Shown in pieces: positions 39,291-56,539 of a stretch of DNA of 56,539 bases (within the stretch, counting starts at the first letter, position 1; every line of letters begins with the position of its first letter). Made by a program: the position numbers and the translations under genes. Source of the stretch: Gammaproteobacteria bacterium (GTDB taxonomy: Bacteria > Pseudomonadota > Gammaproteobacteria > SZUA-229); assembly GCA_029882355.1 (NCBI GenBank), contig JAOUKV010000022.1, positions 1 to 56,539 on the forward strand, in the 5' to 3' direction. The notes below the pieces were generated by a model. The model saw only the letters and a program-made list of their open reading frames with translations, made no database searches and was not told the DNA's origin.

Positions 39291-39337
39291 ATGCCTTTTA
39301 TACTGTTTCAAAACACTGCTTAACCATAGATTTAAAA

Positions 39338-41004: not shown

Positions 41005-42279
41005 TTAATGTTCACGAAAGATTCGGGCGTAGATACGTTGATGGTTTTTAGTCGAGGTTTTCTTACGAGAGTCCTCCCATAAAATCAGGGTGGTTTCGCT
41101 TTTTGGGCTGTATGCAATGGCCGGGAAACGTCGAATGCCGGGCGCATCAGTATCCGTCATTACAAATTCTTCGGACATGTCTCCTTGTGGTGAAATAAAG
41201 CGTCCGTAAACATCCATATTCATCGCCGTTTGATCACGACGTAGATCGTACCAGATAACCAGGAAGCGTTGCTGTTTTTGATCGAAAATGACAGAGGGAA
41301 ATTCCTGATAATCATTTTTTACGGCAATCGGAAATGCCTTGCCGATATGCTTGCCATCGCTGGCCCTTATCAAAGCACCAAATACATCCAGTCCCATTTT
41401 TTGATAATCACGAGCAGTCGTCCAGACAACCAGAAACAGATCATCTTCCGGTGAATAGCTGGCAGCATACATTGACGGGGGCAGGCAGGCATCTTCTTCT
41501 GTATCAATCAGAATGCCGGGTTTGCCGCCATCATCAGAATTCTGAACAAAGGCGGCAAAAATACCTTTGCCTTCGAGTGTTGTAGAAAGATATTGTTGTT
41601 CATCAACAATGTCGCGCCAGACAACCAGAAAGCGTTTTCTTTTTGGATCGTAAATCAGAGAAGGTCTGTCCTGCTTGCCTTCACCTTTGGCGATCAGAAA
41701 TTCATTATCAAGCAGTTTTCCTTGATGACTTATAAAACGACCAAAAAGTTTCTCGGTATCGGCAAGACGATCATCTTTCCATGCGACCAGAAAACGTTGT
41801 TTTTCAAGATCAAAAGCGACTGATGCCTGTTTTTGTGATGTCCTTTGGTTCGTAATGGCAAAATTTGAACCGATGGCTTTGCCGTTGAAGTTTAATAGCT
41901 GAGCATAAATATCCGAATCGATATTGTTTGCATTTCGCCAGTCAGTCCAGGTGACCAGATAATGTTTATTGACAGGATCAAATGCAACAGAAGATCTACC
42001 CTGACCGCCTTTATGGTTGGATATTACGATATCTTCTGAAACTGGTGCACCCTGTGCGTCCAGTATGCGACCATAGATGTCGACATCGGTTTTTGAATTA
42101 TAGCGCACGTCTGACCAGGTAATCAGGAACTGATCATGAACCGGGTTGTAGGCCACAGTGGGCAGACTTTGCAAAGAGTCACGGGTCGATACAGGGAAGT
42201 CACTGCAGTAACCAGATACTGAAGTCAGGCTCAGGGCAACAGTAGCTAAAATGCTAAAAAAGGTAAGTTTAATATTCAT
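41005..42279 (-). CDS. Secreted repeat protein, probable beta-propeller
   Basis: 424 residues. The signal peptide MNIKLTFFSILATVALSLTSVSG ends near residue 25. The mature protein has about seven repeats of 50-60 residues, each with a pattern like PSVAFDP..KHYLVTWTDWR or FLITWSDVR...DIYGRI. The regular strands and the Trp-x-Asp ends suggest a six- to eight-bladed propeller. There is no heme motif. It is the last gene of the leftward cytochrome operon, 2 bp past the undecaheme gene, so it is probably exported with that system, perhaps as a surface binding or scaffold protein. Function unknown. Confidence 0.8.
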   Translation of the reverse strand: MNIKLTFFSILATVALSLTSVSGYCSDFPVSTRDSLQSLPTVAYNPVHDQFLITWSDVRYNSKTDVDIYGRILDAQGAPVSEDIVISNHKGGQGRSSVAFDPVNKHYLVTWTDWRNANNIDSDIYAQLLNFNGKAIGSNFAITNQRTSQKQASVAFDLEKQRFLVAWKDDRLADTEKLFGRFISHQGKLLDNEFLIAKGEGKQDRPSLIYDPKRKRFLVVWRDIVDEQQYLSTTLEGKGIFAAFVQNSDDGGKPGILIDTEEDACLPPSMYAASYSPEDDLFLVVWTTARDYQKMGLDVFGALIRASDGKHIGKAFPIAVKNDYQEFPSVIFDQKQQRFLVIWYDLRRDQTAMNMDVYGRFISPQGDMSEEFVMTDTDAPGIRRFPAIAYSPKSETTLILWEDSRKKTSTKNHQRIYARIFREH

Positions 42280-42281
42280 TG

Positions 42282-44171
42282 TTAGTAGGCTCTGTTGTTA
42301 TGCGCATTACCATGACAGTTCAAGTTACAGGTACCTGTATAAGTGCCACCGTCAGTAAACTCGGGCAAGGCAAATGAATTACCAGTTATTGTATACGGAC
42401 CACCTGTATAGGTAGAGTTTGTCTGGAAATTAATCAGGTGATTATATCTATGAGATCCATGTGGGTCGTGACAGTTAATACAGGATTTTGTTCGAGTATT
42501 AATATGCCGCTGGTGGGAAAAACCACTTAACGGTGTTACCAGTAAGGCGGCTTCAGAGTGGCACTTAAAGCACAGGACAAAATCAGTGCTACCGCTGGTT
42601 GGTACAATGGGATCAAGAGAATAAGCTTGAGCTAATAGCCCTTCATTGTTAGAACCATGTGGTCCATTAGGCCCGGTACCGCCCGCTGCCGCTGAGGTGT
42701 CGCCATTATGACAGTCAGTACAATAAATAAGATTGTTTGTGTTGGTGCTGACTTTATCGAGAGGAATGTCAGTGCGCAGGCTGGGTACTTCACTGTCATT
42801 AGCGGAATTGTTTGTGACAATTGGGTGCCAGGAAACGAGGCCGGGGTTATTATTGTTAACCTTATCACGAAGGTTATAAATTCCATCTAATCGAGTCATA
42901 CTCCAGCCTGTTGCTGTTGAACATCGCTCAGTCAGCGCACCACCGCAAGGCCCTTTCAAGGCTAGACCGTGGCACTTAAAGCATAGCTCATACTGATTGG
43001 TAACCGTACCAACCACGCCGCCATTGATATCAACACCGGGAACATCCTGGATAAGTGCATTAGCGAGTGGCGGTGTGGTATGTAAAGCTGTATTCATCGG
43101 CGCGCTAAGGTCAAACGATACCATGGGCAGGTCGCTCTGAACCTTGTGCGGGTTATGGCAGTCAGGACATTCAGCGTGGATATTCATCGTATCAGGATTT
43201 TCTGTCCCTGCAAAATCGTGATCTGGGTTGGGTGTGGTTGTTACTGGATGGCTATCCGTTTTAGCAAATTCTGCTTGAATATTGGTCGAGGCGGTATTGC
43301 CATTGTGACAGGCAAAACAGGTGTTTTCTTCCAGATATTTTGGCAGTCTTGCGGTATCTGCCGCGCTATGTGGTGTGTGGCAATTCATGCAGCTGTTTTC
43401 GGCAACATTGGCTCCACGCCACTCTACCCGGCGATCTGCCCACGGGTTCGCGCCGATAGAATTCCAGGTGGCCGTTGATTGTTCATGACTTGAACCAATC
43501 CAGCCAGTTTTGTTGTGACATTCTGTACAGATGGCACCATTTAATGAAGTGATCCGGAGAAAGGGTTTATTGGTCGCTTCATGGGGATCATGACAGGTTG
43601 TACATTCAACCCGATTTGAACTGACGCCATCAAGCGGTAGCCCAATACTTGCGGGATCAAATAATTCGCCATCATTAATCTGTAGGGTTGAATCGTAGAC
43701 AAAAGAAATCGGATGATCATCGCTTAGATCAGTGCCCAGATAACCACGTTCTGCTGGGTTCATAGGACTGGTCAGAATGGCGTCAAGCGTTTCCCCTGTG
43801 GGTGGGTTAGACAATGCACCAAGTGCGACAGTGCCATCATGGCAGGCCAGGCACAAAGTTGATTTGCCCGTCGGCTGACCGGGTGAGGCATCTAGCGTGG
43901 TGCTGCCGTATGGTGTGTAGGTCTGTCCTGAAGACAGTGTATGGTTCCAGAGCGGCGCATCCGCCATAGCTGCATGAGGCGTGTGACAGAACACACAAAT
44001 TTGGGTAACTGTGCCACTTTTTATTGTGCCTGGCCCACTGATTGATAAGTTATGGCGAGTGTTACCTACATCTTGCGCAGCCTGAACTCTGGTGTCTGTA
44101 AATATGCCTATTGCTGTAATAGCAATCAACGCAAAAATAACTATGTTAGTTTTTAGATTATCCGCCCACAT
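42282..44171 (-). CDS. Undecaheme (possibly dodecaheme) c-type cytochrome
   Basis: 629 residues from the ATG at 44169-44171; an upstream ATG gives a longer frame but would bury the signal peptide (NLKTNIVIFALIAITAIGIF). There are eleven CXXCH heme sites (CVFCH, CLACH, CTTCH, CTECH, CMNCH, CFACH, CPDCH, CFKCH, CTDCH, CFKCH, CINCH) and one C-terminal CX3CH (CNLNCH, from about residue 615). Several are doubled-CXXCH type (CTTCHDPH, CMNCHTPH, CINCHDPH). It is exported for heme attachment in the periplasm and likely functions as an electron wire near or outside the outer membrane. The start overlaps the NHL gene by 14 bp, indicating coupled translation. Confidence 0.93.
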   Translation of the reverse strand: MWADNLKTNIVIFALIAITAIGIFTDTRVQAAQDVGNTRHNLSISGPGTIKSGTVTQICVFCHTPHAAMADAPLWNHTLSSGQTYTPYGSTTLDASPGQPTGKSTLCLACHDGTVALGALSNPPTGETLDAILTSPMNPAERGYLGTDLSDDHPISFVYDSTLQINDGELFDPASIGLPLDGVSSNRVECTTCHDPHEATNKPFLRITSLNGAICTECHNKTGWIGSSHEQSTATWNSIGANPWADRRVEWRGANVAENSCMNCHTPHSAADTARLPKYLEENTCFACHNGNTASTNIQAEFAKTDSHPVTTTPNPDHDFAGTENPDTMNIHAECPDCHNPHKVQSDLPMVSFDLSAPMNTALHTTPPLANALIQDVPGVDINGGVVGTVTNQYELCFKCHGLALKGPCGGALTERCSTATGWSMTRLDGIYNLRDKVNNNNPGLVSWHPIVTNNSANDSEVPSLRTDIPLDKVSTNTNNLIYCTDCHNGDTSAAAGGTGPNGPHGSNNEGLLAQAYSLDPIVPTSGSTDFVLCFKCHSEAALLVTPLSGFSHQRHINTRTKSCINCHDPHGSHRYNHLINFQTNSTYTGGPYTITGNSFALPEFTDGGTYTGTCNLNCHGNAHNNRAY

Positions 44172-45162
44172 ACTGAAATACCTGCACTCGGCGATTATAG
44201 GAATCTGCCACATAAATTTTGTCCTGATAAATAAACAGCCCAGATGGTAACCAGAATTCGCCAGCATTCTTTCCCTGATTACCGAAGTCCATTAGGTATC
44301 GGCCTTTTTGATCAAAGATTTGAACACGATGAAATATTGCATCTACCACATAAATATGACCCTTGCTGTCTATCCCAATGCCCTTAGGCTGAGAAAAATA
44401 GCCTGACGAATCTCCGTGTTTTCCAAAGTTGCTGATATATTTTCCGTCAAGGTCAAATATCTGCACGCGGAAATTCATGGTGTCATTAACATAGAGATTG
44501 TTATTATCAAGAGCCAAATGACTTGGGAAATTGAAGTCGCCTTCTTTTTGTTTTCGGTGCCCAAATGAAAACTCTTTCTGACCTTGATCATTATAAACTA
44601 CAATTTTGTGATCAAGCGTATCCGATACATATAGTCTGCTGGTTTTATTATTAAAATAAAGCCCGGTCGGTCGTTTAAAACCTTCAATCGTACGAACGAA
44701 TTCTCCATCTTTTGTGAGTACAAAGACTTTGGCCAATTTAGAATCTGATATGTAAATCTGATTATTGCCAATGGCAACTCCGACTGGTGAAGAGAAATAT
44801 ATTTCATCAGCCTGGTTGATCTGTTTATATTCACTGCTAGACGTATTGAACAGGTGCACAGTTTTTTTGCCAGGATCAGCAACTGCAATAAGTTGTTCTT
44901 TTACGGCAATGCTATAAGGGCGAACCATACCAGTGTTAAGACTCCGCCCAGATAACCAACCCCATAAGCGTGAAAAAAATGATTCGTGAATTTCAAGATC
45001 AGTGGGATTGGCGAATTGGTATAGATACTTGATCCGGGGTTTTAGTGGTGGCGATGGCCAAATAATCTCGGACACCTTCAGCTCATCGATGACCGGTTTA
45101 TTTGGAGTTGAACAACCGGAAATTAGCAGTGCAGTGAGGCCAATCATAATGAACTGTTTCAT
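44158..45162 (-). CDS. NHL-repeat propeller lipoprotein
   Basis: 334 residues. The lipoprotein signal MKQFIMIGLTALLISGC has its lipidated Cys at 17. A short leader has IIWPSPPLKPRIKYLYQF, which is paralogous to the start of the NHL protein at 49-50 kb. Then come six NHL-like blades with motifs such as PTGLYFNNKTSRLYVSDTLD, FPSHLALDNNNLYVNDTMNF and QPKGIGIDSKGHIYVVDAIF, ending VFQYVGG. It is likely attached to the outer membrane (no Asp at +2) and used for protein or ligand binding within the cytochrome complex. Its start overlaps the barrel stop by 4 bp, and its end overlaps the undecaheme start. Confidence 0.9.
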   Translation of the reverse strand: MKQFIMIGLTALLISGCSTPNKPVIDELKVSEIIWPSPPLKPRIKYLYQFANPTDLEIHESFFSRLWGWLSGRSLNTGMVRPYSIAVKEQLIAVADPGKKTVHLFNTSSSEYKQINQADEIYFSSPVGVAIGNNQIYISDSKLAKVFVLTKDGEFVRTIEGFKRPTGLYFNNKTSRLYVSDTLDHKIVVYNDQGQKEFSFGHRKQKEGDFNFPSHLALDNNNLYVNDTMNFRVQIFDLDGKYISNFGKHGDSSGYFSQPKGIGIDSKGHIYVVDAIFHRVQIFDQKGRYLMDFGNQGKNAGEFWLPSGLFIYQDKIYVADSYNRRVQVFQYVGG

Positions 45163-47291
45163 TGAGACCGCCTTATCAGATTAAACATCAGCCTGTTATC
45201 TTCGCTATTTCTTGTTGTGCCATTCCATTGGTAGTGATTCAGACTGGCATTGAATGTGATCAAATAATAACGCCATTCAAGGTCTACACCTTCACTAATA
45301 TATTTGTCATCGTTTCCAAGACTATCATCTTGCTGCCGGTAACTCAGGTGGGGTTTAACTGTGATGCTGCTCGAGGGAATTCTTATATTCAGATTAGCAT
45401 TAGCGCTGACAGATGAAACTTCTGATATTGTGGTTTCTGACGAGCTCTGATTAGCGCTCATCGTTAATGTCGTTAGAGTTGAGAAGGCGTAGGATAAGTT
45501 CTGCTTGAAAGATCGAGATTGGGCAACATAATCGTTCAGACTGGTATGTTTGGTTTCTATACCCAGTCCCAATTTGAAAGATTCTTTTGTCAGATTGTAT
45601 GAGATACCCGACGTAGACTCTTTTGAGTTCGTTATTGGTAAAAAACCCGAAGGAAAGTAGACGTTGGTCAGGTTTTCAGGAGTCAAATTTGATGTTTGTT
45701 TGTTTTGTGATTGATTGTGGTAAATCCGTATGTTATCAAGATTAATACGGAAAAAATAGCCGTTGTGATCGGAGGTATTACCGGGTGACCAATGGCTATA
45801 ATTAATTGTCACCGCCTCATCAATACTGATGCTACCTCCGTCGATTCTATGGATTTCTGTGTAACCATTCGGAGATTGCGTGACAGTGTAATCAATATTT
45901 ATGTTATAGATTGAACTAGTAGTAGAGTTGATGACTTCGATAGTAGTAATATCAATGTATAATTGATTCAGAATAATAAGATCAATTTCAAAGTTATCAG
46001 TATAACCGAGTACATCTACTAATTGTGTTCCTCCTGATTGTTGCGTATTTAACCGGGAACCATTAATGCCGAGCGAGATAAGACTGTTTTTCATTGGTAG
46101 TTTCTTGTTATAGCTTGCACTGTATCGTGGTCCCTCAGTGGTTGACTTGCCACCAGTGCCAGCGTTATACCGACTAACATTACGTTGGTATCCTACCTGC
46201 GTTGTTAGGTTACTATAAAGCTGATGATTAAGATCAATGCTACTATTGTTATTGACAGTGTTAGTGGTTCGTTCTGTTTTACTGTAAGCATACTGGTAGG
46301 TACTGAATAATTTTTTGGTATGCTGAAGACGGAGATTTTCAGTTATCGACGTATTTTTATAAGCGCCAAAATCTTTTTGTTCTTTGTTCGCCAAACGGCT
46401 GCTAAGAGAGCTGCTCTTTCCCCAGTTAAATGCATGATTGATTTGTTCACGATTATAGCTATAGTGACGATCATAAATAAAATCGTTATAGTCCAGTCGC
46501 TCTATGTCCAGATTCATTTTACTACTACGACCACGGTAGTTTAGTCGTTTGATGCTGTCGTTGGTATGTAGCGGGTTTGCACTAAACCCTGATTCCTGAA
46601 CCCGGTCCTGTTCTCGTGTCGTGTATGAAATACTGGAGGGAAAATAAATATTTTTATGGTTGAGTGTTATCTGTTTGTTCCTCATTTCAAAGTCTGCTCG
46701 ACCACCCAATGATTCACTGGTGATACCAGTGGTTCTATCAAATCCAGCCGTTAGGCTTAAGGGTGTTTTTGCCCCATGTAGAAAGCTACTGTTAACAGCA
46801 TAGTTCAAAGTATTGCTGTCACTCTCACTAGTTGTATTATCAGTATTGATATAGTCAGACTGACTGAATGTTGGCCTTAGATCAAATGAAAGTGTTGCAA
46901 TCTTTTGGTCAAGCAGATGTATGCGTTTTTTAAAACTGAACTGCTCGCGATAGCGTAAGTCTTGTGAATCCTGAGTATTTCCAGGGCTGATTTCGGTATC
47001 GCGCCAACTACCATCAAACATAAAACGTGCATCCCAAAGCAGAGGTTCAGGTAAAAACCACTCTTCGGCTTTGGCCGTCGTTGGTATGGCTAATGTAGAA
47101 AATAGAAACAATGTGAAAGATATTTTTTGCCAGTTTACATATGTGAAAATTTGCCATATCTGGCACTTTAGGCATGGTGCAGCCAAGCTACATTCACAAA
47201 ACAGCTGCTTGTTAACATGCTCTATTGTGTCGAGAGCATGATCTAGGAACTGGGTCTTGTAGCTGCTGTTTTGTTGTGACAACGATTGCAT
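45159..47291 (-). CDS. Large outer-membrane beta-barrel candidate of the cytochrome operon
   Basis: 710 residues in the open frame. The export signal (KISFTLFLFSTLAIPTTAKA) lies at about residues 54-74, so the true start may be further downstream at a non-ATG codon; the upstream 50 residues contain CECS and CLKC, which I do not interpret. The mature part has alternating hydrophobic/polar beta strands rich in Asn, Ser, Thr and Tyr (for example ITLNHKNIYFPSSISYTTRE), like large porins such as MtrB or PioB that hold multiheme cytochromes across the outer membrane. The last residue is not a typical terminal Phe. It overlaps the neighbouring genes on both sides. Barrel identity is inferred from pattern and context. 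Confidence 0.72.
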   Translation of the reverse strand: MQSLSQQNSSYKTQFLDHALDTIEHVNKQLFCECSLAAPCLKCQIWQIFTYVNWQKISFTLFLFSTLAIPTTAKAEEWFLPEPLLWDARFMFDGSWRDTEISPGNTQDSQDLRYREQFSFKKRIHLLDQKIATLSFDLRPTFSQSDYINTDNTTSESDSNTLNYAVNSSFLHGAKTPLSLTAGFDRTTGITSESLGGRADFEMRNKQITLNHKNIYFPSSISYTTREQDRVQESGFSANPLHTNDSIKRLNYRGRSSKMNLDIERLDYNDFIYDRHYSYNREQINHAFNWGKSSSLSSRLANKEQKDFGAYKNTSITENLRLQHTKKLFSTYQYAYSKTERTTNTVNNNSSIDLNHQLYSNLTTQVGYQRNVSRYNAGTGGKSTTEGPRYSASYNKKLPMKNSLISLGINGSRLNTQQSGGTQLVDVLGYTDNFEIDLIILNQLYIDITTIEVINSTTSSIYNINIDYTVTQSPNGYTEIHRIDGGSISIDEAVTINYSHWSPGNTSDHNGYFFRINLDNIRIYHNQSQNKQTSNLTPENLTNVYFPSGFLPITNSKESTSGISYNLTKESFKLGLGIETKHTSLNDYVAQSRSFKQNLSYAFSTLTTLTMSANQSSSETTISEVSSVSANANLNIRIPSSSITVKPHLSYRQQDDSLGNDDKYISEGVDLEWRYYLITFNASLNHYQWNGTTRNSEDNRLMFNLIRRSQ

Positions 47292-47608
47292 GTATCAAAC
47301 CCAATTTTATAGGCTTCCTTGCCATTATGACATTGTCCACAGAGCTCACCCTGTTTAAATCTCTTCATACTCATATTGTTTGTTCCAACTTTCATTTTGA
47401 AGATTTTTTCATGACAAACAGAACAGCGATAACGGATACGGTGTTTCCAGTGTGGGAAGTGGGAAGAGGGTAGACCCTTAGCTGCCCCCTTTCCTTCATA
47501 AATAATATCACCAAAAATAATATCGCCGGGCGGAATGTTGCCGGCAAAAACGGGGTGATTGATGGTTAGGCTCAGCAAACATATTAGGGCTGAGGTAAAC
47601 AAGATCAT
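47243..47608 (-). CDS. Small triheme periplasmic cytochrome c
   Basis: 121 residues from the ATG at 47606-47608, with signal peptide MILFTSALICLLSLTINHPV ending at FAG. The open frame begins further upstream, but that would overlap the preceding gene by 85 bp. There are three CXXCH sites (CSVCH, CGQCH, CNRCH) with HFPHWKHRIRY before the first, resembling c7/c3-type cytochromes with bis-histidine hemes. It is probably a periplasmic electron shuttle. It ends 49 bp inside the start of the barrel frame, which itself suggests that the barrel start is further downstream. Confidence 0.85.
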   Translation of the reverse strand: MILFTSALICLLSLTINHPVFAGNIPPGDIIFGDIIYEGKGAAKGLPSSHFPHWKHRIRYRCSVCHEKIFKMKVGTNNMSMKRFKQGELCGQCHNGKEAYKIGFDTCNRCHNKTAATRPSS

Positions 47609-47631
47609 TTTATAGTGGCTATAGATCAACG

Positions 47632-48231
47632 TTATTTCCCTGCCATCGAGGTATGACAACGTGCACAATTCTCTGCAGTAGGCGCAAAAGAAACAGTACC
47701 ATGACAGAAGCCGCAATATTTACCAGCATTTATATCTTCCATGGTGATTTTTGTACCACGATAGCGAAATAGTTTAGGGTGGCAACTACTACAGTCCAGG
47801 TGCTTTGTATGTGTAGAATGTGGAAAAAAGGCGTCAGTACCTGGAAAAGGTCCCTTGAGGTAGAAATCAAACTTGAAAACAGGTTCAGGTTCGCGCGCTC
47901 CACCGATAGCACTACGTGGTTGAATAATTGACTGTTGTAATGCCAGTGCCCAATCACGCTGCCCTAGTTCATTTATGGGTAGCATTTTCTCAGCTTCTTC
48001 CCAGGATTTGGCATTTTCCATTTTTACTACCGATAACGGCACTGCCTCTGCTTTCGTTGCTTTCGCTACCTGACTATTAGCATTTACAGGTTGTTCACTA
48101 ATAGCTGTTTTAGATGGGGCAACTTTTTCTGGCGGTGGTGCTGGCAGATCAAAAAAAACAGAAAGTGTTTTCTGGCTGCAGGAGACCAATAAAAAAAGGA
48201 CAGGAAGGAGTATTACTAACCAACATTTCAT
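47632..48231 (-). CDS. Triheme lipoprotein cytochrome c
   Basis: 199 residues from the ATG at 48229-48231, chosen because AGGA is well spaced and the lipoprotein signal MKCWLVILLPVLFLLVSC begins there; the lipidated Cys is residue 18. A low-complexity spacer (LPAPPPEKVAPSKTAISEQP) leads to a C-terminal part with three CXXCH sites (CSSCH, CGFCH, CARCH). FPHSTHTKHLDCSSCH resembles the neighbouring triheme protein, so the two may be related. As a lipoprotein it is probably held at the outer membrane, near the barrel candidate, where it could pass electrons to or from the periplasmic cytochromes. Confidence 0.87.
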   Translation of the reverse strand: MKCWLVILLPVLFLLVSCSQKTLSVFFDLPAPPPEKVAPSKTAISEQPVNANSQVAKATKAEAVPLSVVKMENAKSWEEAEKMLPINELGQRDWALALQQSIIQPRSAIGGAREPEPVFKFDFYLKGPFPGTDAFFPHSTHTKHLDCSSCHPKLFRYRGTKITMEDINAGKYCGFCHGTVSFAPTAENCARCHTSMAGK

Positions 48232-48282
48232 ATCCTTCCTGTCCCACATTTGTCTCTACTTAGGTTCTTTTATGTTCTTATA

Positions 48283-48969
48283 TTACTTAATGTGGCATGT
48301 AGTGCACAACGTATCGATACCAACACGCAAGAATGTTGGATTAGTTGCTTCATGCGGGTTGTGGCAGCTGGCACATTCCACCTGATCTGAACCTGCGCCA
48401 TAAAGTTGCAAGGCCGCTTGCACCGATGCCACTGATTGAAACGCTGTGTCCTGAGTAGGGTCATAGGTAACGGATATAGGATGGTCACCAGTAAGTACAT
48501 TACCCAGATTGGTGACACCGGTAGGCATGGTGTCAGTAGTAGGCACGCCGTTCAGATTGAATGTCCAGCCCTGATCCGCACCAGCAGCAACATAGTTACC
48601 GGAACCTGCACCATTGATCAACTGATCAAAGCCAACTGTACCATCGTGGCATGTTAAACAGGCCAAAGAAATACTGGCGGGTGCGCCGGCGATGGTCATA
48701 TCCATGGTAGCACTGCTATACATGGTATAAGTAGCTGCCGAAGAGCCTCTGTTCCATAATGGCGCTGGTCCACCGGTTTCGGTGTGCGGTGAATGGCAGA
48801 AGCCGCAAACAAATGCGGTTGCTTCTGTGCTGAGATTGTTAACTTTGTCGGTCTGCGTACTGGACAGGTTGTGCTTGGTGGCAGCCACATCATCGACTGC
48901 ATATACCAGAGAACTTGACCCTATCGATAGCAAGGCAACAAGTGGTATTGTCCGAAATAGTATTTTCAT
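48283..48969 (-). CDS. Tetraheme c-type cytochrome
   Basis: 228 residues. The signal peptide MKILFRTIPLVALLSIGSSS ends near LVYA (residue 24). Four CXXCH sites are present: CGFCH (from 55), CLTCH, CASCH and CTTCH. The first and third are in doubled-CXXCH-like contexts (CGFCHSPH, CASCHNPHEATN). TGDHPISVTYDP also occurs in similar form in the undecaheme protein (DDHPISFVYDS), suggesting common ancestry with its N-terminal half. Its start overlaps the NHL gene by 4 bp. Probably a secreted or periplasmic electron carrier. Confidence 0.92.
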   Translation of the reverse strand: MKILFRTIPLVALLSIGSSSLVYAVDDVAATKHNLSSTQTDKVNNLSTEATAFVCGFCHSPHTETGGPAPLWNRGSSAATYTMYSSATMDMTIAGAPASISLACLTCHDGTVGFDQLINGAGSGNYVAAGADQGWTFNLNGVPTTDTMPTGVTNLGNVLTGDHPISVTYDPTQDTAFQSVASVQAALQLYGAGSDQVECASCHNPHEATNPTFLRVGIDTLCTTCHIK

Positions 48970-50159
48970 GATTCTTTCTCCTGATCATTGTGATCATGTT
49001 TTTGAGTGATTTTCCCTGATGCTGCCGTATCTCCATTCGCGCTATTTTTATTTAATGTTTCTAAGTTTTCTTTTTTTAGGTACTGGAATACCTGAATCCG
49101 GAAATTGTACTGGTCAGCAACATAGATTCTGTCCTGTTGATCAATGTATAGACCGGCTGGCAAGATGAAGTGTCCTGGCTCACTGCCATGAGTACCTACA
49201 TCTAGCAGAAGTGTTCCTTCATTATCGAAGATTTGAATATTATTAAATGCCGCATCTGCGACATAGATGTGCCCCAATGAGTTAACCGCAATACCTTTTG
49301 GTCGAACGAACTTCCCGCGACCATCACCATTCTCACCAAATGTTTTGTGTAGTGTTCCATCTGGCTTCAGAATTTGAATACGGAAATTCATACTATCTGT
49401 AACATAAAGATTTCCACTGCTGCTTAATGCAATATTGGTGGGCCAGTTAAATTCTTCTGGTTTTTCGCCACGCTTACCGAGAGTGTCAATATGCTCACCA
49501 GCTTTGTTATAGACCACAATATGGTGTGCTTTGCTGTCAACAACATAAACACGATTGCGTTCGTCATCTACCGCGATTCCAATTGGTCGATCTAGTTCAC
49601 CTTTTTGACCCATGGCGCGAAGAAACTCCCCATCTGTATCGAACACAACCACGCGTTGTTTGACTGAGTCAGTGACATAGATATTGCCCTGACCGTCAGA
49701 TGTGATACCCAAAGGTTTTGCAAGTATGCCTTTACCATGGGTGCCCCATATGGAAAATGATTTATTTTGTTCATCAAAAACCAGCACCTTTCCCCAGCCA
49801 CTGTCGGCAACGAAGACACGTTCTTTGTTATCCACATGAACAGCATAGGGCTTTTTTAGTTGACGCCCGGATTCGGCTGGCTGACCAAGCAGACTGCTGC
49901 GCAGGCTAGACATAGTTGATTTTGGGGTAATGATTTGATCTTCAGAATGTAATGTACGGACAAATTTGATACGTGGCTGCTCAGGAGGTAATGGCCAGAC
50001 AAGTTCGGAGGTGTCCTTGATTGTGTTGGAGCTTGTTGGAGTGGAAGTCGCACAGCCCAGCATTGCCCCTGTGCCTGTAAGAATGACAAACAACATTAAA
50101 GGGCGTACACATCCGCTAGAAAACGAATGTTGAAATAACAGTGGGTGTCCAAAGATCAT
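48966..50159 (-). CDS. NHL-repeat propeller lipoprotein (first gene of the leftward operon)
   Basis: 397 residues. The N terminus has a lipoprotein-type signal with lipobox AMLGC (Cys about residue 36); the ATG at 50159 or the in-frame ATG at 50096 could be the start. The leader LVWPLPPEQPRIKFVRTLHS is paralogous to the NHL protein at 44-45 kb. NHL blades follow, for example KPLGITSDGQGNIYVTDSVK, WPTNIALSSSGNLYVTDSMN, RPKGIAVNSLGHIYVADAAF and LPAGLYIDQQDRIYVADQYN, and a charged His/Lys-rich tail. It probably acts at the outer membrane as a binding propeller. It is the promoter-proximal gene of the leftward run. Confidence 0.9.
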   Translation of the reverse strand: MIFGHPLLFQHSFSSGCVRPLMLFVILTGTGAMLGCATSTPTSSNTIKDTSELVWPLPPEQPRIKFVRTLHSEDQIITPKSTMSSLRSSLLGQPAESGRQLKKPYAVHVDNKERVFVADSGWGKVLVFDEQNKSFSIWGTHGKGILAKPLGITSDGQGNIYVTDSVKQRVVVFDTDGEFLRAMGQKGELDRPIGIAVDDERNRVYVVDSKAHHIVVYNKAGEHIDTLGKRGEKPEEFNWPTNIALSSSGNLYVTDSMNFRIQILKPDGTLHKTFGENGDGRGKFVRPKGIAVNSLGHIYVADAAFNNIQIFDNEGTLLLDVGTHGSEPGHFILPAGLYIDQQDRIYVADQYNFRIQVFQYLKKENLETLNKNSANGDTAASGKITQKHDHNDQEKES

Positions 50160-50362
50160 AAGTGTCTAACTTTCCATGAAAAAATATGTTGCCATTTGTT
50201 TTTTCTATCTCTACAGTACTTATAACACAAAATAGCACAATAAAAAAAGGTATTTGATTTAGAATTGATCTATGTCACACCCTTAAAGTTTATAATTGTT
50301 TTACAAGTTAATAAGTGTAAGTTATTGTACCATCGAAGCTGGGCGCTCAAGGAGTTATCACG
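50160..50362. promoter_or_regulatory. Divergent control region between the two cytochrome operons
   Basis: A 203-bp AT-rich gap. Leftward, TATAAG (complement at 50219-50224) is a possible -10 element with a poor -35. Rightward there is a better promoter (separate entry). The CACACCCTTAAAG area has no operator that I recognise. Shared control of both operons is an inference from position. Confidence 0.5.
50300..50328 (+). promoter_or_regulatory. Candidate sigma-70 promoter of the rightward cytochrome operon
   Basis: TTTACA (50300-50305) and TATTGT (50323-50328) lie 17 bp apart, 34 bp before the PPIase start codon. Five of six and four of six consensus positions match. Confidence 0.4.
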
Positions 50363-51355
50363 TTGGATAAAGCTTTTACTAATCTGGTTATCAAGTATTG
50401 TTTACCGCATTATCTTATTTTTTTGATTATGATGATGTCTGCTGTGCAAGCTAATGCCTCTAAACCTGAAGTGGTGCTAATAGTGGGTGAGGAGCATTTT
50501 CTACGTTTTGAGCTTGATGAAGTTATTAACAGTTTTGTGCCCTCGGCGGTGTTTCATGGCGGCATTACTAAAGAAAAGCGTGAAAAATATATCCCACGTG
50601 CTCTGGATGTGTTGATCGATCGTGCACTGTTGTATAGAGGTGCACAGCAGTCAGGTATTCATGTTGATGCATCAGAAATCGACGCAGTTGTGGGCAAAAA
50701 TATTAAGAAATTTGGCTCGAAGGAGAAGTTTGAAGCTGCGGTTAGAGATAGTGGATTAACATTAGAGCGTTTTAAGCATCGAATTATTCAGCAAAATGCG
50801 ATTAACCAATATGTTCAAGCGAAATTGGTCGATCAATCCCGTTACAGTGAAAAAGAATTACGCGATTACTATGATGGTCACCCACAGGAGTTCCGTCAAC
50901 CTGAATCCGTTGGACTGTGGCATATCACGCTAAAAGTAAAACCAAATGCTCCTGAATCCATCTGGATAGAAAAGAAAGATCTGGCCAATGAGATAATAAA
51001 GCGCGCAAAAAATGGTGAGGATTTTGCGATGTTGGCAAGTAAATATTCAGATGACGATTATCGGGTTAAAGGTGGGTGGATTGGCTATATGCATAAGGGG
51101 CGCCTTTTGCCGGCACTTGAGGAACAGGCATTTATTTTAAAGAAAGGCGAGGTTGCAGAGCCGATTCGTTCATTGCAGGGATATCATGTGATCAAAGCGG
51201 GGGAGCGAAAACAGGCTGGGAATATTTCATTCGATGAAGCCAGTGTTGGGCTCAGGCAACGACTTGAGAAAATGCGTTTTGAGAAACTGAGATCTGAGTT
51301 ACTAAACAAGCTCAGGAAGGGTGTTGAGATTAAGGTGTTGACTGGTAAGGCATAA
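50363..51355 (+). CDS. Parvulin-type peptidyl-prolyl isomerase (SurA/PrsA-like)
   Basis: 330 residues, starting at TTG 50363 after a strong Shine-Dalgarno AAGGAG (50349-50354, 8 bp before). The signal peptide region HYLIFLIMMMSAVQANA is followed by an N-terminal SurA-like helical domain (VLIDRALLYRGAQQSGIHVD, FKHRIIQQNAINQYVQAKLV) and a parvulin domain (about 165-275: VGLWHITLKVKPNAPE, FAMLASKYSDDDYRVKGGWI, EVAEPIRSLQGYHVIKAGER). It is a periplasmic folding helper, probably for the large exported cytochromes, barrel or propellers of this cluster. First gene of the rightward operon. Confidence 0.9.
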   Translation: MDKAFTNLVIKYCLPHYLIFLIMMMSAVQANASKPEVVLIVGEEHFLRFELDEVINSFVPSAVFHGGITKEKREKYIPRALDVLIDRALLYRGAQQSGIHVDASEIDAVVGKNIKKFGSKEKFEAAVRDSGLTLERFKHRIIQQNAINQYVQAKLVDQSRYSEKELRDYYDGHPQEFRQPESVGLWHITLKVKPNAPESIWIEKKDLANEIIKRAKNGEDFAMLASKYSDDDYRVKGGWIGYMHKGRLLPALEEQAFILKKGEVAEPIRSLQGYHVIKAGERKQAGNISFDEASVGLRQRLEKMRFEKLRSELLNKLRKGVEIKVLTGKA

Positions 51356-51418
51356 CAACGGTCAATTTATCCATCATTATTTTTTGTACTACGAATTTTT
51401 CGAGACAAATAACAAAGC

Positions 51419-52420
51419 ATGGTTAAGATAAGACGATACAGCATTGATGTTAACACGGCCATACAAGCATTAGTTGGCTTGGTGATGGTGTTTACAATGT
51501 TATCGGTTGCGAATGCTGAACAATTATTAAAGCACCCAGAAAAAATACAGCACTTATTAGAACAAAAGAAAATTACCGAAAAACAGATTCCTAATCCTCA
51601 TTGGCATGCCAATGGTTGTATATCCTGTCATACAGATGAAGTAGGCAGCAATAATAATCTTAGAACAAATAATATCGTTGAGCTCTGTCACAATTGTCAC
51701 TTGACGAGCGAGTCACATTCGATAATCCACCCGGTTAATGTAACTCCTGGCAATAAAATGCTTCGTCGTATGCCTGCAGAATTATTAGAAGCCATCAAAA
51801 AATCCAGTGGAGAGGTGGATTGTCTAACCTGTCATGATGCTGTGCAAGCATGTAGTGAAGGCAGAGAAAACGTACAAACGATAAATCCGCAATTTTTTCG
51901 TGGCGGTAATTATCAGGACGATAGGACACGGTTGTGTTTTTATTGCCATGACAAAGGTCAGCATGAACGGTTTAACCCCCATAAGCAGACTGCAGCGGAT
52001 GGAAATATAAAAAAAGAACCCTGTTATGTTTGTCATAAAACCATGCCGGATGGAGAGCATGTCACTAATATTGGACAGCTCAATTTTAACGTTGAAGATG
52101 ATTACTCCTCTGTGGAGGATGATTATTCATTGATGTGTAATGGCTGCCATCCATGGAAGCCCCATCCTGGCGGATCTTTTTCATTTAAGACGAGCAAGGT
52201 AGTCGATCATCTTGTTGTTCCATCTGACAAGATCATGCGCCAGCTTCAGGATAGTAAGATTTATTTACCACTGCAACCAGGAACCCAGCGAGTTTTCTGT
52301 GGAACTTGTCACAATGCTCATGATAAAGGGGTAATCAAACGTGCCATTGCTGCTCAAGGTGCCGGAAGTAAGAATTTTCTACGAGATCAGAATTTGTGTG
52401 TGCACTGTCATGCAAAATAG
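51419..52420 (+). CDS. Octaheme c-type cytochrome
   Basis: 333 residues with a signal region near residues 15-34 (AIQALVGLVMVFTMLSVANA). Eight CXXCH sites: CISCH, CHNCH, CLTCH, CFYCH, CYVCH, CNGCH, CGTCH and CVHCH, the last at the very C terminus. Short histidine-rich segments (NPHWHANG, HERFNPHKQTAADG, PHPGGSF) could give axial ligands. A short in-frame duplication (VEDDYSSVEDDYS, about residues 222-234) lies between hemes 5 and 6. Periplasmic, soluble. It could link the inner-membrane part to the outer-membrane part of the conduit. Confidence 0.9.
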   Translation: MVKIRRYSIDVNTAIQALVGLVMVFTMLSVANAEQLLKHPEKIQHLLEQKKITEKQIPNPHWHANGCISCHTDEVGSNNNLRTNNIVELCHNCHLTSESHSIIHPVNVTPGNKMLRRMPAELLEAIKKSSGEVDCLTCHDAVQACSEGRENVQTINPQFFRGGNYQDDRTRLCFYCHDKGQHERFNPHKQTAADGNIKKEPCYVCHKTMPDGEHVTNIGQLNFNVEDDYSSVEDDYSLMCNGCHPWKPHPGGSFSFKTSKVVDHLVVPSDKIMRQLQDSKIYLPLQPGTQRVFCGTCHNAHDKGVIKRAIAAQGAGSKNFLRDQNLCVHCHAK

Positions 52421-52435
52421 AGGCACTGGAAAAAA

Positions 52436-53572
52436 ATGATAGCAAATAAAGGACGGTACAGAGGCAAATATGTTTTGGCAATTAATCTGATGCTAGTGCT
52501 GTTTTCGACTTTCTTTTTAACGCCAGCCATAGCCTTTGAGGATGACGAGGGGTGTCTTATATGCCATAAATATCCGATGATGGCTCGAGTTACTGATGAC
52601 GGGGTGCTGCGATCTTATTATGTAATGCCGCATATTTTTGGGCGCACTGTTCATCGAAATGTACCCTGTCGGGATTGTCATTCTTATATAAAGGAACTAC
52701 CTCATAAGCCGGTTACGGAGGGTGTTACCTGTAACGCTGAATGCCACTCCATCAAGAACCCAGCCACGGGCAAACAGTTTAGTCATAAGCTAATTTATGA
52801 TTCCTATATCAAGAGTACTCATGGCAGAAAGAAAGTAGCTGAAGGCCTCGATGCCGATAAGCCTTATTGTATAAGCTGTCACACCAACCCGCTTTATAAT
52901 CCTGATGAAGACAAACCGCCGAAACATATCGTCGATCGGTGCGTTATATGTCATGAAAAACGCGACTTTGTTGAGCGGTGGTATAGTCATACCAGTCGAC
53001 GAATACGTGAGGTTAAGCGTTCGTCCAAAGAAGTTTTTGAGTTATGTTCATCTTGCCATGAGAACAAGGAAATGTTGGACAGGCATGTTAAGCAGGCGAA
53101 AGAAGAAGGACGAGAGCTGGGTAAAAAATTTCCAATCGCAGCCGAATCCTATAAGGAAAGTTTTCATGGCAAGCTGACGCGTTTAGGCTTTAATAAAACG
53201 GCAAGTTGTCTGGATTGTCATGCAAGGCAGAAAGATTATTTTAGAAGTGTGCATGAAATACGGCCATCACGTGATCCTGATTCACCGACACATAAGAATA
53301 ACAAGGTTGAAACCTGTCAGCGATGTCATGTTCATGCGGATGAGAATTATGTGGCACTGGATCCTCATCCCAGTAGTAAACGGGAAGACAACTTATTCAA
53401 GTATTATGCTGAAATGATCTACAACATTGTGGGTGTTGCAGTCATTGCAATGCTGGTCGGTATGTCGCTTCTGGAAACGATAGGAAGAAGGCGTGATGGT
53501 ATTGCATGGCGACTATCTCATGGCAGTACCTGGCGAAGGAAAAGTCGAAGAGGGAGAGACCGAGTTGAATAA
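52436..53572 (+). CDS. Membrane-anchored multiheme cytochrome c (7 CXXCH + 1 CX3CH)
   Basis: 378 residues. The signal peptide ends at AIA (residue 33). Heme sites: CLICH (40), CRDCH, CX3CH CNAECH (99-104), CISCH, CVICH, CSSCH, CLDCH and CQRCH. A C-terminal membrane span (about 328-350, MIYNIVGVAVIAMLVGMSLL) and a very basic cytoplasmic tail (WRRKSRRGRDR) anchor it to the inner membrane. The cytochrome b follows after 18 bp, so the two probably form a quinol-linked complex, as seen in other cytochrome c/b pairs. The CX3CH site may need its own lyase handling or could be unused. Confidence 0.9.
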   Translation: MIANKGRYRGKYVLAINLMLVLFSTFFLTPAIAFEDDEGCLICHKYPMMARVTDDGVLRSYYVMPHIFGRTVHRNVPCRDCHSYIKELPHKPVTEGVTCNAECHSIKNPATGKQFSHKLIYDSYIKSTHGRKKVAEGLDADKPYCISCHTNPLYNPDEDKPPKHIVDRCVICHEKRDFVERWYSHTSRRIREVKRSSKEVFELCSSCHENKEMLDRHVKQAKEEGRELGKKFPIAAESYKESFHGKLTRLGFNKTASCLDCHARQKDYFRSVHEIRPSRDPDSPTHKNNKVETCQRCHVHADENYVALDPHPSSKREDNLFKYYAEMIYNIVGVAVIAMLVGMSLLETIGRRRDGIAWRLSHGSTWRRKSRRGRDRVE

Positions 53573-53590
53573 CATACAGAATCTATACAC

Positions 53591-54556
53591 TTGCAAGGTG
53601 AAGCAATGAAGTTATCAGAACACGCCAGAAACGTTATCGAAACCAGCATGAAGCATAATAGGGTTAGCGATAGTGATCGAGATGAGATTGAGCGCGTTAT
53701 CGCAAACATGCCAGATGACAGGGTGTTTTTGCAGAAAAATGTTGTTTCCGATCCGCTTGGTGATTTACCTCGATATTCTATTCATATCCGGATTCAGCAT
53801 ATGCTGACATTTTCAACATTTTTGGCATTGGCGTTTACTGGTCTGCCTATTCATTTTATTGAAGCCCTGTGGGCTGAGCCCTTTAACATGGTATTAGGTG
53901 GCGTCGAAGTTACACGTATCATCCACCGTACACTGGCAGTAGTGATGATTGCCAGCATGGTTTATCACTTATTAACCATCACGATAAAGCCTTTGCTTGA
54001 AATTAAAAATAGGTGCTTTGATATCAGACGAACAATAATCCCGTTATTTAAAGATATTAGAGACTTCAAGGAAGACATGCTTTATTCCGCCAATAAGCGT
54101 GCCCAGCGACCTGAGATGGATAAGTATATGTACAAGCAGAAGATACATTATTTCGCCGCTGGCTTCGGTAACATGGTGATGGTTGTGTCGGGTTCTTCGT
54201 TTCTGTTTCCGGAGTTTTGGGCAAGTATCCTGCCGATATCAATGGTGTCAAATTTTCAGGAGCTGATGCGTTTATCACATCCACATGAGGCATTACTGGC
54301 GTTGTTAGTGATTGCTTTTTGGCATTGGTATAACGTTCATCTGGCACCAGGTCGCTTTCCAATGCAGTGGACTTTTTTGACTGGAAAGATTACCCGTGAA
54401 CATCAGATTGAGGAGCATTTTCTTGAGTATTTGAGAAATCTGGTAGAGATACCGGAAGAGCGACAACATCTTCAGGATATATTGGATAGTCGCGGATTGT
54501 CTGAGGATGATGGTCTTATTGATAAACAGGAATCTGAGTCAGAAGATATGACATGA
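53591..54556 (+). CDS. Cytochrome b subunit (di-heme, membrane)
   Basis: 321 residues. Four main hydrophobic spans (about 75-95, 116-137, 180-205 and 235-256) contain candidate heme histidines in IHIRIQHMLTF, RIIHRTLAV, MVYHLLTI and the C-terminal ALLVIAFWHWYNVHLAPG, a phrase like those in formate dehydrogenase/hydrogenase-type cytochromes b. N- and C-terminal ends are charged and cytoplasmic. It probably exchanges electrons between the quinone pool and the membrane-anchored cytochromes encoded on both sides. Its stop overlaps the small membrane gene by 4 bp. Confidence 0.88.
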   Translation: MQGEAMKLSEHARNVIETSMKHNRVSDSDRDEIERVIANMPDDRVFLQKNVVSDPLGDLPRYSIHIRIQHMLTFSTFLALAFTGLPIHFIEALWAEPFNMVLGGVEVTRIIHRTLAVVMIASMVYHLLTITIKPLLEIKNRCFDIRRTIIPLFKDIRDFKEDMLYSANKRAQRPEMDKYMYKQKIHYFAAGFGNMVMVVSGSSFLFPEFWASILPISMVSNFQELMRLSHPHEALLALLVIAFWHWYNVHLAPGRFPMQWTFLTGKITREHQIEEHFLEYLRNLVEIPEERQHLQDILDSRGLSEDDGLIDKQESESEDMT

Positions 54557-54672
54557 TTAAACCTTTAACTCTTTGGCAAAAGATTATTGCTTATAGCTCA
54601 TTGGCGATTATTCTGGTTTTAATGGTTCTGGGTAGTTATGTAATGTGGTTAATGTGGCATCACACAGACTGA
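54553..54672 (+). CDS. 39-residue membrane protein of the cytochrome operon
   Basis: The ATG at 54553 overlaps the cytochrome b stop (ATGA), and the frame ends with TGA at 54670-54672. It begins MIKPLTLWQKIIAYSSLAII and has one hydrophobic span (about 10-33), ending WHHTD, a histidine pair at the membrane edge. The overlap with the gene before and the 16-bp gap, with AAGAGGA, before the next gene argue that it is translated. It is likely a small accessory subunit of the membrane complex, comparable in kind to the short subunits found in other respiratory complexes. No family is recognised. Confidence 0.7.
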   Translation: MIKPLTLWQKIIAYSSLAIILVLMVLGSYVMWLMWHHTD

Positions 54673-54688
54673 TAAGAGGATTTGACTA

Positions 54689-55753
54689 ATGCATGAAGTG
54701 AGTACCCAGGCGACCGTTATAATTGTTGCTGCTGTATTACTGTTTTTTATGCTGGGCATTGCCATCCTTGTCATTATCGATCACAAGGCCAGACTGCCGG
54801 GGGGGTTTACTAATGATCCTTTTAGCCTGACAGGGATGCGACGCGATCACCCTGTTGTTGCTTTTATTACTGCGACAATATTGTTGAGTATTATAGCGGC
54901 GCTGGTATTTGAGTTGACTGTTGCTGTCAGTGGGATATTAGGTGTGGACTTCATGAAAGAGGAGCATCAGATAGTGACCATTTTGAGTGAGGAACGTAAC
55001 TTAGAGCGAACTCGACATTTCCATAATTTACCTGATAAATTCCAGCCCACGCAGGGAGAAAAAAGTATTTGTTTTTATTGTCATGGTGATTTTCCGCACT
55101 CCAAGGAGCCGATGATCAGGACATTGATGAATATGCATACCCAGTTTACGGGATGTGTCTCATGTCATGTTGATGAGAAGAAGATACCAGAAAAAGATAT
55201 CCAGTTAAGATGGTTGAATTACTCAGGCATCGAGGTAAAGGGTAAACCCTTTGGTATGGATTATGATCCAGATAGCGGTGACCTGAATCAGACCGATGAC
55301 TATTTTTCCAAGATAGTGGCTTATAAGAAAAGTGCAGGTGAGGAAGTTTTACTGGAGATTGGACCTGGTGATCCTGCGCTAGTGGAATTCAATAAAGTCA
55401 AGGATAGCCTTTCCAATGCTGATAAAGAGGCATTAAAAAATCGATATCACAAGAACGTTAGACCTAATGGACGTAAATGTAGTCGTTGCCATATTAATGA
55501 ACAGGACAGTTATATTCCGTTTCGCGAGTTGGGATTTTCAGAGCGTCGAATTGATGATCTTACAAACCTCAATCTTGTTGGTTTGATTGAGAAATATAAA
55601 AGATTCTACATTACCGATTTGAAGGGTACAGGTGCCAGTGATAAAACAAAGTCAGCATCGGCAATAGATAAAGATAGAGTTAAGCAGGAACATATGAAAA
55701 AAGACCTAAGATCATGGTGGAATGAAACGTATGATTCACCCACAGGTAAATAG
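54689..55753 (+). CDS. Triheme cytochrome c with two N-terminal membrane spans
   Basis: 354 residues. Two hydrophobic spans (about 8-29 and 57-80) form an N-terminal hairpin; the rest is periplasmic. The three CXXCH sites are CFYCH, CVSCH and CSRCH (about residues 130, 156 and 267). A long stretch between hemes 2 and 3 (LRWLNYSGIEVKGKPFGMDY, LLEIGPGDPALVEFNKVKDS) carries no heme and may be a folded domain. The C terminus is charged. It most likely completes the inner-membrane quinone-linked module with cytochrome b and the seven/eight-heme protein. AAGAGGA precedes the ATG. Confidence 0.88.
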   Translation: MHEVSTQATVIIVAAVLLFFMLGIAILVIIDHKARLPGGFTNDPFSLTGMRRDHPVVAFITATILLSIIAALVFELTVAVSGILGVDFMKEEHQIVTILSEERNLERTRHFHNLPDKFQPTQGEKSICFYCHGDFPHSKEPMIRTLMNMHTQFTGCVSCHVDEKKIPEKDIQLRWLNYSGIEVKGKPFGMDYDPDSGDLNQTDDYFSKIVAYKKSAGEEVLLEIGPGDPALVEFNKVKDSLSNADKEALKNRYHKNVRPNGRKCSRCHINEQDSYIPFRELGFSERRIDDLTNLNLVGLIEKYKRFYITDLKGTGASDKTKSASAIDKDRVKQEHMKKDLRSWWNETYDSPTGK

Positions 55754-55754
55754 G

Positions 55755-56539
55755 ATGCGTCACTTTTCTTTATTCGTTATCGTATTATTGTCGATAATGC
55801 AGCTTGCTAATGCAGCAGAAATACCTACCAAAAATATAGAGCATATTGTCACCATTGCTGGTGATGCAGAATTAAGTTTACCAACGGATACTGTTGTCGA
55901 TGATTCGGGATTTATTTATGTGGTTGATAGCGGTAATGACAGAATAGCTGTGTTCGATGAGGAAGGGAAAATTCTTCGGAGTTTTGGTAAAACAGGAAAT
56001 CAGCCCGGCGAGTTTCAAGGACCAGTAGGCATTGCCATCGATACTGATGAGCGATTATATGTTGCCGACAAGGGAAATAATCGGATACAGATTTTCGACC
56101 TAAACGGTAAGCTAATTAAAACGTTCAAAACGATGTTTCAGGAGCAGGCAGTAAACCCTGTTGACGTGGCAATAAATAACGAAGGCGATCAGATATATGT
56201 TACTGGAAATGCCAATCATCGAGTCATGGTATACGACCGAGATGGAAATTTGTTACGCCATTGGGGCGGAGAGGGCGCGAATAAAGGCATGTTTCGTTAT
56301 CCCGCTACAGCGGCCGTGTCACCGGATAATAAACTTTATGTTGTCGATGTATTAAATACTCGTGTTCAGGTTTTTGAAGGCGATGGCAAGTATATTATTG
56401 ACGTAGGAAGTTGGGGCGTTTTGCCCGGTCAATTGTTTCGCCCGAAAGGCGTGGCAATAGATAATTCAGGGCTAGTATATGTCAGTGATAGTTATATGGG
56501 TGTTATTCAGGTGTTTGATAGCAACCATCGTTTCAGTCA
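55755..56539 (+). CDS. NHL-repeat secreted protein (3' part cut by window edge)
   Basis: The ATG at 55755 opens a frame that runs to the window end (261 codons visible). The signal peptide MRHFSLFVIVLLSIMQLANA has no lipobox, unlike the other two NHL proteins of the cluster. At least four blades are visible: LPTDTVVDDSGFIYVVDSGN, GPVGIAIDTDERLYVADKGN, NPVDVAINNEGDQIYVTGNA and YPATAAVSPDNKLYVVDVLN. It follows the triheme gene by one base and continues the rightward operon. Probably periplasmic or secreted. The remaining operon lies outside the window. Confidence 0.88.
   Translation, partial: MRHFSLFVIVLLSIMQLANAAEIPTKNIEHIVTIAGDAELSLPTDTVVDDSGFIYVVDSGNDRIAVFDEEGKILRSFGKTGNQPGEFQGPVGIAIDTDERLYVADKGNNRIQIFDLNGKLIKTFKTMFQEQAVNPVDVAINNEGDQIYVTGNANHRVMVYDRDGNLLRHWGGEGANKGMFRYPATAAVSPDNKLYVVDVLNTRVQVFEGDGKYIIDVGSWGVLPGQLFRPKGVAIDNSGLVYVSDSYMGVIQVFDSNHRFS

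Follow-up and report, generated by a model that had tools for sequence, protein, structure and literature searches.

Undecaheme electron transfer (Uet) has been published for Tenderiales and Gallionella (PMC10734462, PMC12575090). Its parts, as described for Gallionellaceae, are an undecaheme cytochrome (UetJ), a tetraheme (UetA), trihemes (UetDEG), an isomerase (UetB), NHL proteins (UetHI) and a barrel (UetC) (PMC10734462). Uet has been described in a cathode-oxidising organism (PMC10734462, PMC5371394, PMC12575090), and a metatranscriptome study of Candidatus Tenderia electrophaga places three trihemes, a TPR gene and an undecaheme at Tel_16515, 16520, 16530, 16525 and 16545 (PMC5371394). 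A Uet-related locus was found in a stretch of 56,539 nucleotides (the window) from a Gammaproteobacteria bacterium (GenBank assembly GCA_029882355.1, contig JAOUKV010000022.1), where fourteen genes, A to N, lie at positions 41005–56539. On sequence comparison, two of its cytochromes, the tetraheme G and, over its first third, the undecaheme B, are homologues of OmcE, a filament subunit of Geobacter sulfurreducens. Genes J to N, together with an 18-heme cytochrome (X) on a second contig, form a further module that includes a cytochrome b (L).

The locus shares with Uet an undecaheme (B), a tetraheme (G), trihemes, an isomerase (I), two NHL proteins (C and H) and a barrel (D). It differs in having two c7 trihemes (E and F) rather than three, the three heme motifs of M sitting on a membrane-anchored protein of the other module; in lacking a TPR-type counterpart and any gene between E and F; in its order (H-G-F-E-D-C-B, and I encoded on the opposite strand), as opposed to a collinear A–J; and in the added J-K-L-M-N-X module. 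It is called Uet-related because the parts match, but it has two c7 trihemes with nothing between them, and its gene order differs. An earlier note, made from the sequence of the window, had proposed a relation to the undecaheme system of Tenderiales, which holds at the level of the parts list, the named Uet proteins being set beside the locus by description only. It had also thought the make-up unusual; the same parts recur in many genomes, and because the parts list matches published Uet this description was dropped.

A gammaproteobacterial locus among the relatives (L053) has the order tetraheme, isomerase, barrel, triheme, triheme, 506-aa gene, triheme, NHL, NHL, undecaheme. A second (L054) has the same order without an isomerase at that place. 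BLAST matched window B, C, E, F, G, H and I to genes of L053, and B matched the undecahemes of both loci at 28–30%. The 506-aa gene had no TPR family match, so it corresponds to the Tenderia TPR gene by position only.

Exactly 39 CXXCH motifs are spread over seven open reading frames (11 in B, 3 in E, 3 in F, 4 in G, 8 in J, 7 in K and 3 in M), and two CX3CH motifs occur at residue 647 of B and residue 99 of K, as the earlier note had counted. The comparison set consisted of stop-to-stop stretches of at least 90 aa in six frames of window positions 1–41004 (15,979 aa); it held no CXXCH, so the clustering is not a matter of chance.

OmcE homology of G and B

When solved structures were searched with B and with G, 7TFS, which is OmcE (PMC12954529), ranked first for both (1.2e-29 and 4e-20, respectively). 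Second came 9yuq_N, followed by the Mtr complex at 5.7e-5 for B and 2.9e-5 for G. PDB entry 9yuq is a second solved OmcE-like assembly, a putative multiheme cytochrome with 16 chains.

The contribution of the heme motifs was controlled by a shuffle test in which every cysteine and histidine was held fixed and the remaining residues were shuffled 500 times; E and F stood outside this test. Against OmcE, z was 10.9 for G and 16.1 for the N-terminal part of B; against 9yuq the values were 9.6 and 11.7. The controls J, K, M and the rest of B gave z from -1.1 to 2.1 overall (at most 1.6 against OmcE and 2.1 against 9yuq). These comparisons indicate that G and the first third of B are OmcE homologues beyond their heme motifs.

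Eight histidines are kept in the G/B family, four within CXXCH and four in TKHN-, CHxPH-, DHP- and CHxxH-type motifs, and are probably the ligands of four bis-His hemes. The DHP motif is present in G and OmcE yet unaligned between them, and is aligned between B and OmcE. G and B are paralogues with 41% identity. With OmcE they share four CXXCH and four further conserved histidines; they differ from it in that B carries seven more CXXCH and polymerisation of G is only predicted. In OmcE, one heme is reported to be ligated by a histidine from the next subunit (PMC9473688), and G might share histidines across subunits in this way. What is new here is that G and the N-terminal third of B are homologous to OmcE: a literature search, made without the paper that defines Uet and that may say so itself, found no paper calling UetA OmcE-like.

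Five relative loci (L113, L115, L117, L119 and L122; Sedimenticola-like and Polarisedimenticolaceae records) have an X cytochrome followed by a second G-like protein with five motifs. A G homologue 53% identical to window G, far closer than most gammaproteobacterial relatives, occurs in the genome of L102, a Nitrospiria record, and in L140, hinting at transfer between phyla. Searches of plasmids with L and B gave no match.

The barrel and the inner-membrane module

D (710 aa), which the earlier note had picked out as a large barrel candidate, had no Pfam or NCBIfam family match, and its profile matched no solved structure. Its AlphaFold2 model, built from 28 sequences, has about 25 strands of at least 13 residues between residues 85 and 708 (predicted local distance difference test, pLDDT, 72; predicted template modelling score, pTM, 0.59). 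Comparison of this model with Foldseek and VIA-align returned outer-membrane barrels; therefore D is very probably an outer-membrane barrel. Among the 50 matches shown, 6r2q_B, which we take to be MtrB, the barrel chain of the Mtr complex, gave the longest and tightest alignment (455 residues, 6.7 Å, Z 15.9) and the highest TM-scores (0.39/0.42), its Z being tied with TonB receptors. With this tie and no Pfam match to place D, a barrel of the MtrB/PioB family is one candidate. When the D family was aligned with L053-type (UetC-like) barrels by hhalign, a probability of 99.3% was obtained (E 5.1e-20, 324 columns, N-terminal half), to which generic barrel likeness may contribute. At residues ~424–505 of D, the succession of long barrel strands is broken by short ones, and in this part the family consensus, DYR..G.T.I.R..DG..V.VDY, points to a plug or an exposed domain.

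The genome is in 62 contigs, one of which is the window in its full length. The end of this contig cuts N, so the earlier note's description of the conduit as probably complete did not stand. The first 53 bases of another contig of the same genome (C23) are the window's last 53 bases. This contig completes N (314 aa) and carries, directly downstream at C23:184-2532, the gene for X, a 782-aa cytochrome with 18 CXXCH, which brings the locus to 57 CXXCH. The gene after X is on the opposite strand. Most intact relatives of X have 18 or 24 hemes, and a solved-structure search with a 24-heme relative gave no match.

Relatives of the locus were collected by scanning genome contigs with an alignment of L, and the best 80 of 115 were kept; eight of these (L128–L135) are paralogues at 31–34% identity, and many of the 80 stretches are cut by contig ends. 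K adjoins L in 77 and M adjoins L in 79, while J was seen in 52, N in 65 and an X-type cytochrome in 60. L has five invariant histidines in seven sequences; solved-structure searches with K and with L gave no match. In three loci (L068, L069 and L093) a Uet-type run begins immediately after X. A G, B, D or UetC-like gene was present in 48 of the 80 stretches, and in 41 of the 55 that are at least 15 kb long. Across 369 sampled genomes of the class, a B homologue (threshold 1e-20) was found in all nine genomes with a strong L (at least 67% identity) and in 40 of the 360 others (Fisher p 6.5e-9). An OmcE-domain protein was present in each of 24 L-bearing genomes chosen from the 80 loci, many of them picked because their flanks were without wire genes.

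The 80 loci come mostly from metagenome-assembled genomes labelled Gammaproteobacteria. Named carriers of L are Thiobacillus, Sulfurimicrobium, Sulfuritalea, Thiohalomonas denitrificans, Sedimenticola, Ca. Thiodiazotropha and Noviherbaspirillum denitrificans, the last a record with a strain name (TSA40); other records are labelled Nitrospirae or Nitrospiria, Ca. Polarisedimenticolaceae, Deltaproteobacteria and Desulfobacula. Identity to the window proteins has a median of 69% for L and 63% for K, and is 36–43% for B and 11–19% for D, save the nearest relative at 64%; conservation thus drops from the inside outward. From the per-gene set only the L and K medians were used, as the identities of G, B, H, C and perhaps N and J mix in paralogues. 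Slow evolution of inner-membrane and fast evolution of outer-surface cytochromes have been described in Geobacter (PMC12977616). Three of the divergent loci (L128, L130 and L132; L 32–33%) have their K-L-M paralogue beside c7 trihemes and a 394-aa six-heme protein, with other sets in the same genomes.

CbcBA of G. sulfurreducens is built from a multiheme cytochrome with a membrane tail and a cytochrome b. It is a quinone-side unit akin to K-L by description, M and N being extra in the locus. PCC3, as described, likewise has a very large periplasmic multiheme cytochrome, a barrel and a membrane protein predicted to bind b hemes. Its listed parts are a porin, a giant extracellular MHC (multiheme cytochrome), a periplasmic MHC of 21–27 hemes (X has 18, and 18 or 24 in relatives) and a five-helix membrane protein, and that description names no OmcE-type tetraheme. 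A SEEP-SRB1 operon (OetABI-type) is also similar by description, with a propeller, an isomerase and 16- and 26-heme cytochromes.

Electron path and alternatives

The host genome encodes two RuBisCO large subunits, NapA and cbb3 oxidase subunit I above their cut-offs, two NapC-type proteins, and an aa3-type oxidase below the curated cut-off (540.9 of 670.75). Because of the RuBisCOs, NapA and cbb3 oxidase, uptake of electrons from outside is likelier than export, and the gene content suits an autotroph that draws external electrons and respires oxygen or nitrate. A gene beside a NapC-like protein resembled cytochrome cd1 by eye; an NCBIfam scan (E 1e-10) gave it no family, so denitrification is not claimed.

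The explanation that we prefer, with roughly even chances of being right, is a Uet-related extracellular electron transfer (EET) system with a built-in inner-membrane link. It would lead from quinone to the cell surface and end in an OmcE-type filament, for which B would serve as base or cap. K, L and M would form a membrane-bound cytochrome complex exchanging electrons with quinone. The octaheme J and the 18-heme X, aided by the trihemes E and F, would carry electrons through the periplasm, and D would be the large barrel in the outer membrane. G, an exported OmcE-family tetraheme, could polymerise into a heme filament; B, with its OmcE-like domain and seven or eight more hemes, might sit at the filament base or cap near D as the joint between filament and envelope. 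Folding, export or holding of the wire may be the task of the NHL proteins (lipoproteins C and H, propeller N) and of the isomerase I. The electron source would be a mineral, a metal, a partner cell or an electrode, and the electrons would serve carbon fixation and the respiration of oxygen or nitrate, the reverse also being possible. A more general form is offered tentatively: that UetJ-type undecahemes are OmcE-domain fusions which anchor or cap a UetA-type filament, that J-K-L-M-N-X is the inner-membrane and periplasm-spanning half, and that together they make a one-locus quinone-to-surface wire for electron uptake by nitrate-using autotrophs.

Several points weigh against the explanation that we prefer. 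The model of B reached a pLDDT of 40 (AlphaFold2, 28 sequences) and failed, so the domain layout of B is taken from its sequence. The structures that best match D are large barrels of a generic sort, for the most part TonB receptors. Of the 80 L-bearing stretches, 32 were without a G, B, D or UetC-like gene, 14 of these 32 being at least 15 kb long, and E, F and I are missing in many relatives. The co-occurrence statistics ignore kinship. The filament is proposed from homology, and homology does not by itself imply polymerisation; moreover, an electron-transfer role of cytochrome filaments is disputed in the literature (PMC11077965, PMC13194489).

The earlier note had read the locus as a trans-envelope conduit. 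A probable EET locus that has a barrel and a cytochrome b module of its own was upheld, and a porin-cytochrome conduit is no longer the sole reading because G and the N-terminal part of B are OmcE homologues. In such a conduit, B, X or the trihemes would pass electrons through or beside D, and G would be a monomeric surface cytochrome. The barrel lies next to several cytochromes and MtrB gave the longest, tightest alignment and top TM-scores with D among the 50 matches shown, but its Z was tied with TonB receptors. Nor was a DmsE/MtrA-type decaheme of the Mtr/Mto/Pio kind found above cut-off, in line with the note's remark that no decaheme pair was obvious (best DmsE-family score 53.8 bits against a cut-off of 192.2, the scan covering 10 of the 14 proteins). 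With the OmcE homology of G and B also against it, the conventional conduit appears unlikely, although Uet itself was published as a porin-MHC complex (PMC10734462). A role of barrel, propellers, trihemes and isomerase purely in assembling and exporting an OmcE-type cytochrome, with electrons taking another route to the filament, is improbable. The precedent is the osc set of G. sulfurreducens, a propeller, secretion set and isomerase for which a role in folding, secreting and shaping OmcS nanowires has been proposed (PMC13194489). Propeller and isomerase around a filament cytochrome are common to both, but the osc filament is OmcS, the two are likened by parts, and the presence of trihemes beside an 18-heme cytochrome in a single locus suits a role in carrying electrons equally well.

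That the same machine works outward, reducing extracellular metals such as Mn(III) or Fe(III), concerns direction and is compatible with the filament explanation; it is possible, if doubtful. OmcE itself is described as serving metal reduction, and the occ cluster of Ca. Dechloromonas occultata, also described as an undecaheme-bearing EET cluster and likened here by that description, has been tied to Mn(III) reduction; occ may be of the same kind as the betaproteobacterial loci found here. The two RuBisCOs, NapA and cbb3 oxidase of the host, and the description of Uet in a cathode-oxidising organism, speak against it. A purely periplasmic respiratory pathway beside a barrel gene by accident is very improbable. 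A periplasmic location is conceivable for each of J, K, M and X, but Pfam and NCBIfam scans found no catalytic reductase or oxidase domain in the run, which also holds a barrel, three lipoproteins (C, F and H) and OmcE-type cytochromes. No close homologues belonging to such a pathway were seen among homologues known by sequence.

The locus is a variant of a known, little-tested cluster family, and OmcE-filament anchoring is a testable idea. According to a 2025 review, nanowire secretion and membrane anchoring are speculative, and anchoring and electron entry points are open questions (PMC12307469). Here, outside Geobacter, a single locus brings together a predicted filament subunit and a fusion of that subunit to additional hemes, the 18-heme X and the cytochrome b module, besides a barrel and putative assembly factors. 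Anchoring and electron uptake could thus be tested on a small set of genes. If true, the anchor or cap reading would reveal how a cytochrome filament attaches to the envelope.

Gene features

The two divergent runs are as tight as the earlier note had described them, with 203 bp between H and I. Its assignments of a cytochrome b, three NHL propellers and a parvulin isomerase were borne out by Pfam above curated cut-offs: NHL in C, H and N, a PPIC-type isomerase in I and Ni_hydr_CYTB in L, a cytochrome b of b561/Ni-hydrogenase type. Its secreted repeat protein, A, does have a signal-like N-terminus; the repeat label was given by eye, and A had no Pfam match reaching its cut-off and no BLAST match in the 17 relative loci compared. 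As called, B/C, D/E and E/F overlap by 49–110 bp. Later starts would shrink these overlaps, and the called starts of B, D, E and L are probably too early; an internal ATG is the start in three close relatives of L. Scanning for promoters and terminators turned up fewer sites than in shuffled sequence, and a repeat scan gave two-copy matches only.

Table 1. Genes of the locus, with window coordinates and the basis of each assignment
Gene	Description	Position	Strand	Basis
A	Secreted protein, ~60-residue repeats, 424 aa, accessory	41005..42279	-	Repeats named by eye
B	Undecaheme, 11 CXXCH and 1 CX3CH, UetJ-like; OmcE-like domain at ~residues 44-254, then 7 more CXXCH; start probably later	42282..44267	-	Motifs, homology
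C	NHL propeller lipoprotein	44158..45162	-	Pfam
D	Large outer-membrane barrel candidate, 710 aa, UetC-like by profile	45159..47291	-	Model, fold and profile comparison
E	c7-type triheme cytochrome; true start probably ~47608	47243..47716	-	TIGR04257 nanowire_3heme above cut-off
F	Triheme lipoprotein, c7 type	47632..48249	-	Motifs, Pfam scan
G	Tetraheme, UetA-like, OmcE homologue; predicted filament subunit	48283..48969	-	Homology
H	NHL propeller lipoprotein	48966..50159	-	Pfam
I	Parvulin/SurA-type prolyl isomerase	50363..51355	+	Pfam
J	Octaheme, probably periplasmic	51419..52420	+	Motifs
K	Cytochrome, 7 CXXCH and 1 CX3CH, C-terminal membrane helix	52436..53572	+	Motifs
L	b-type cytochrome; start probably 53606	53591..54556	+	Pfam, relatives' starts
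M	Triheme, two N-terminal membrane helices	54689..55753	+	Motifs
N	Secreted NHL propeller, cut by contig end, continued on contig C23	55722..56539	+	Pfam, contig overlap

Upstream of the locus, at window positions 36928–40954 on the + strand, a YcaO-type protein, an acyltransferase and a flavin adenine dinucleotide (FAD)-dependent dehydrogenase were recognised by eye.

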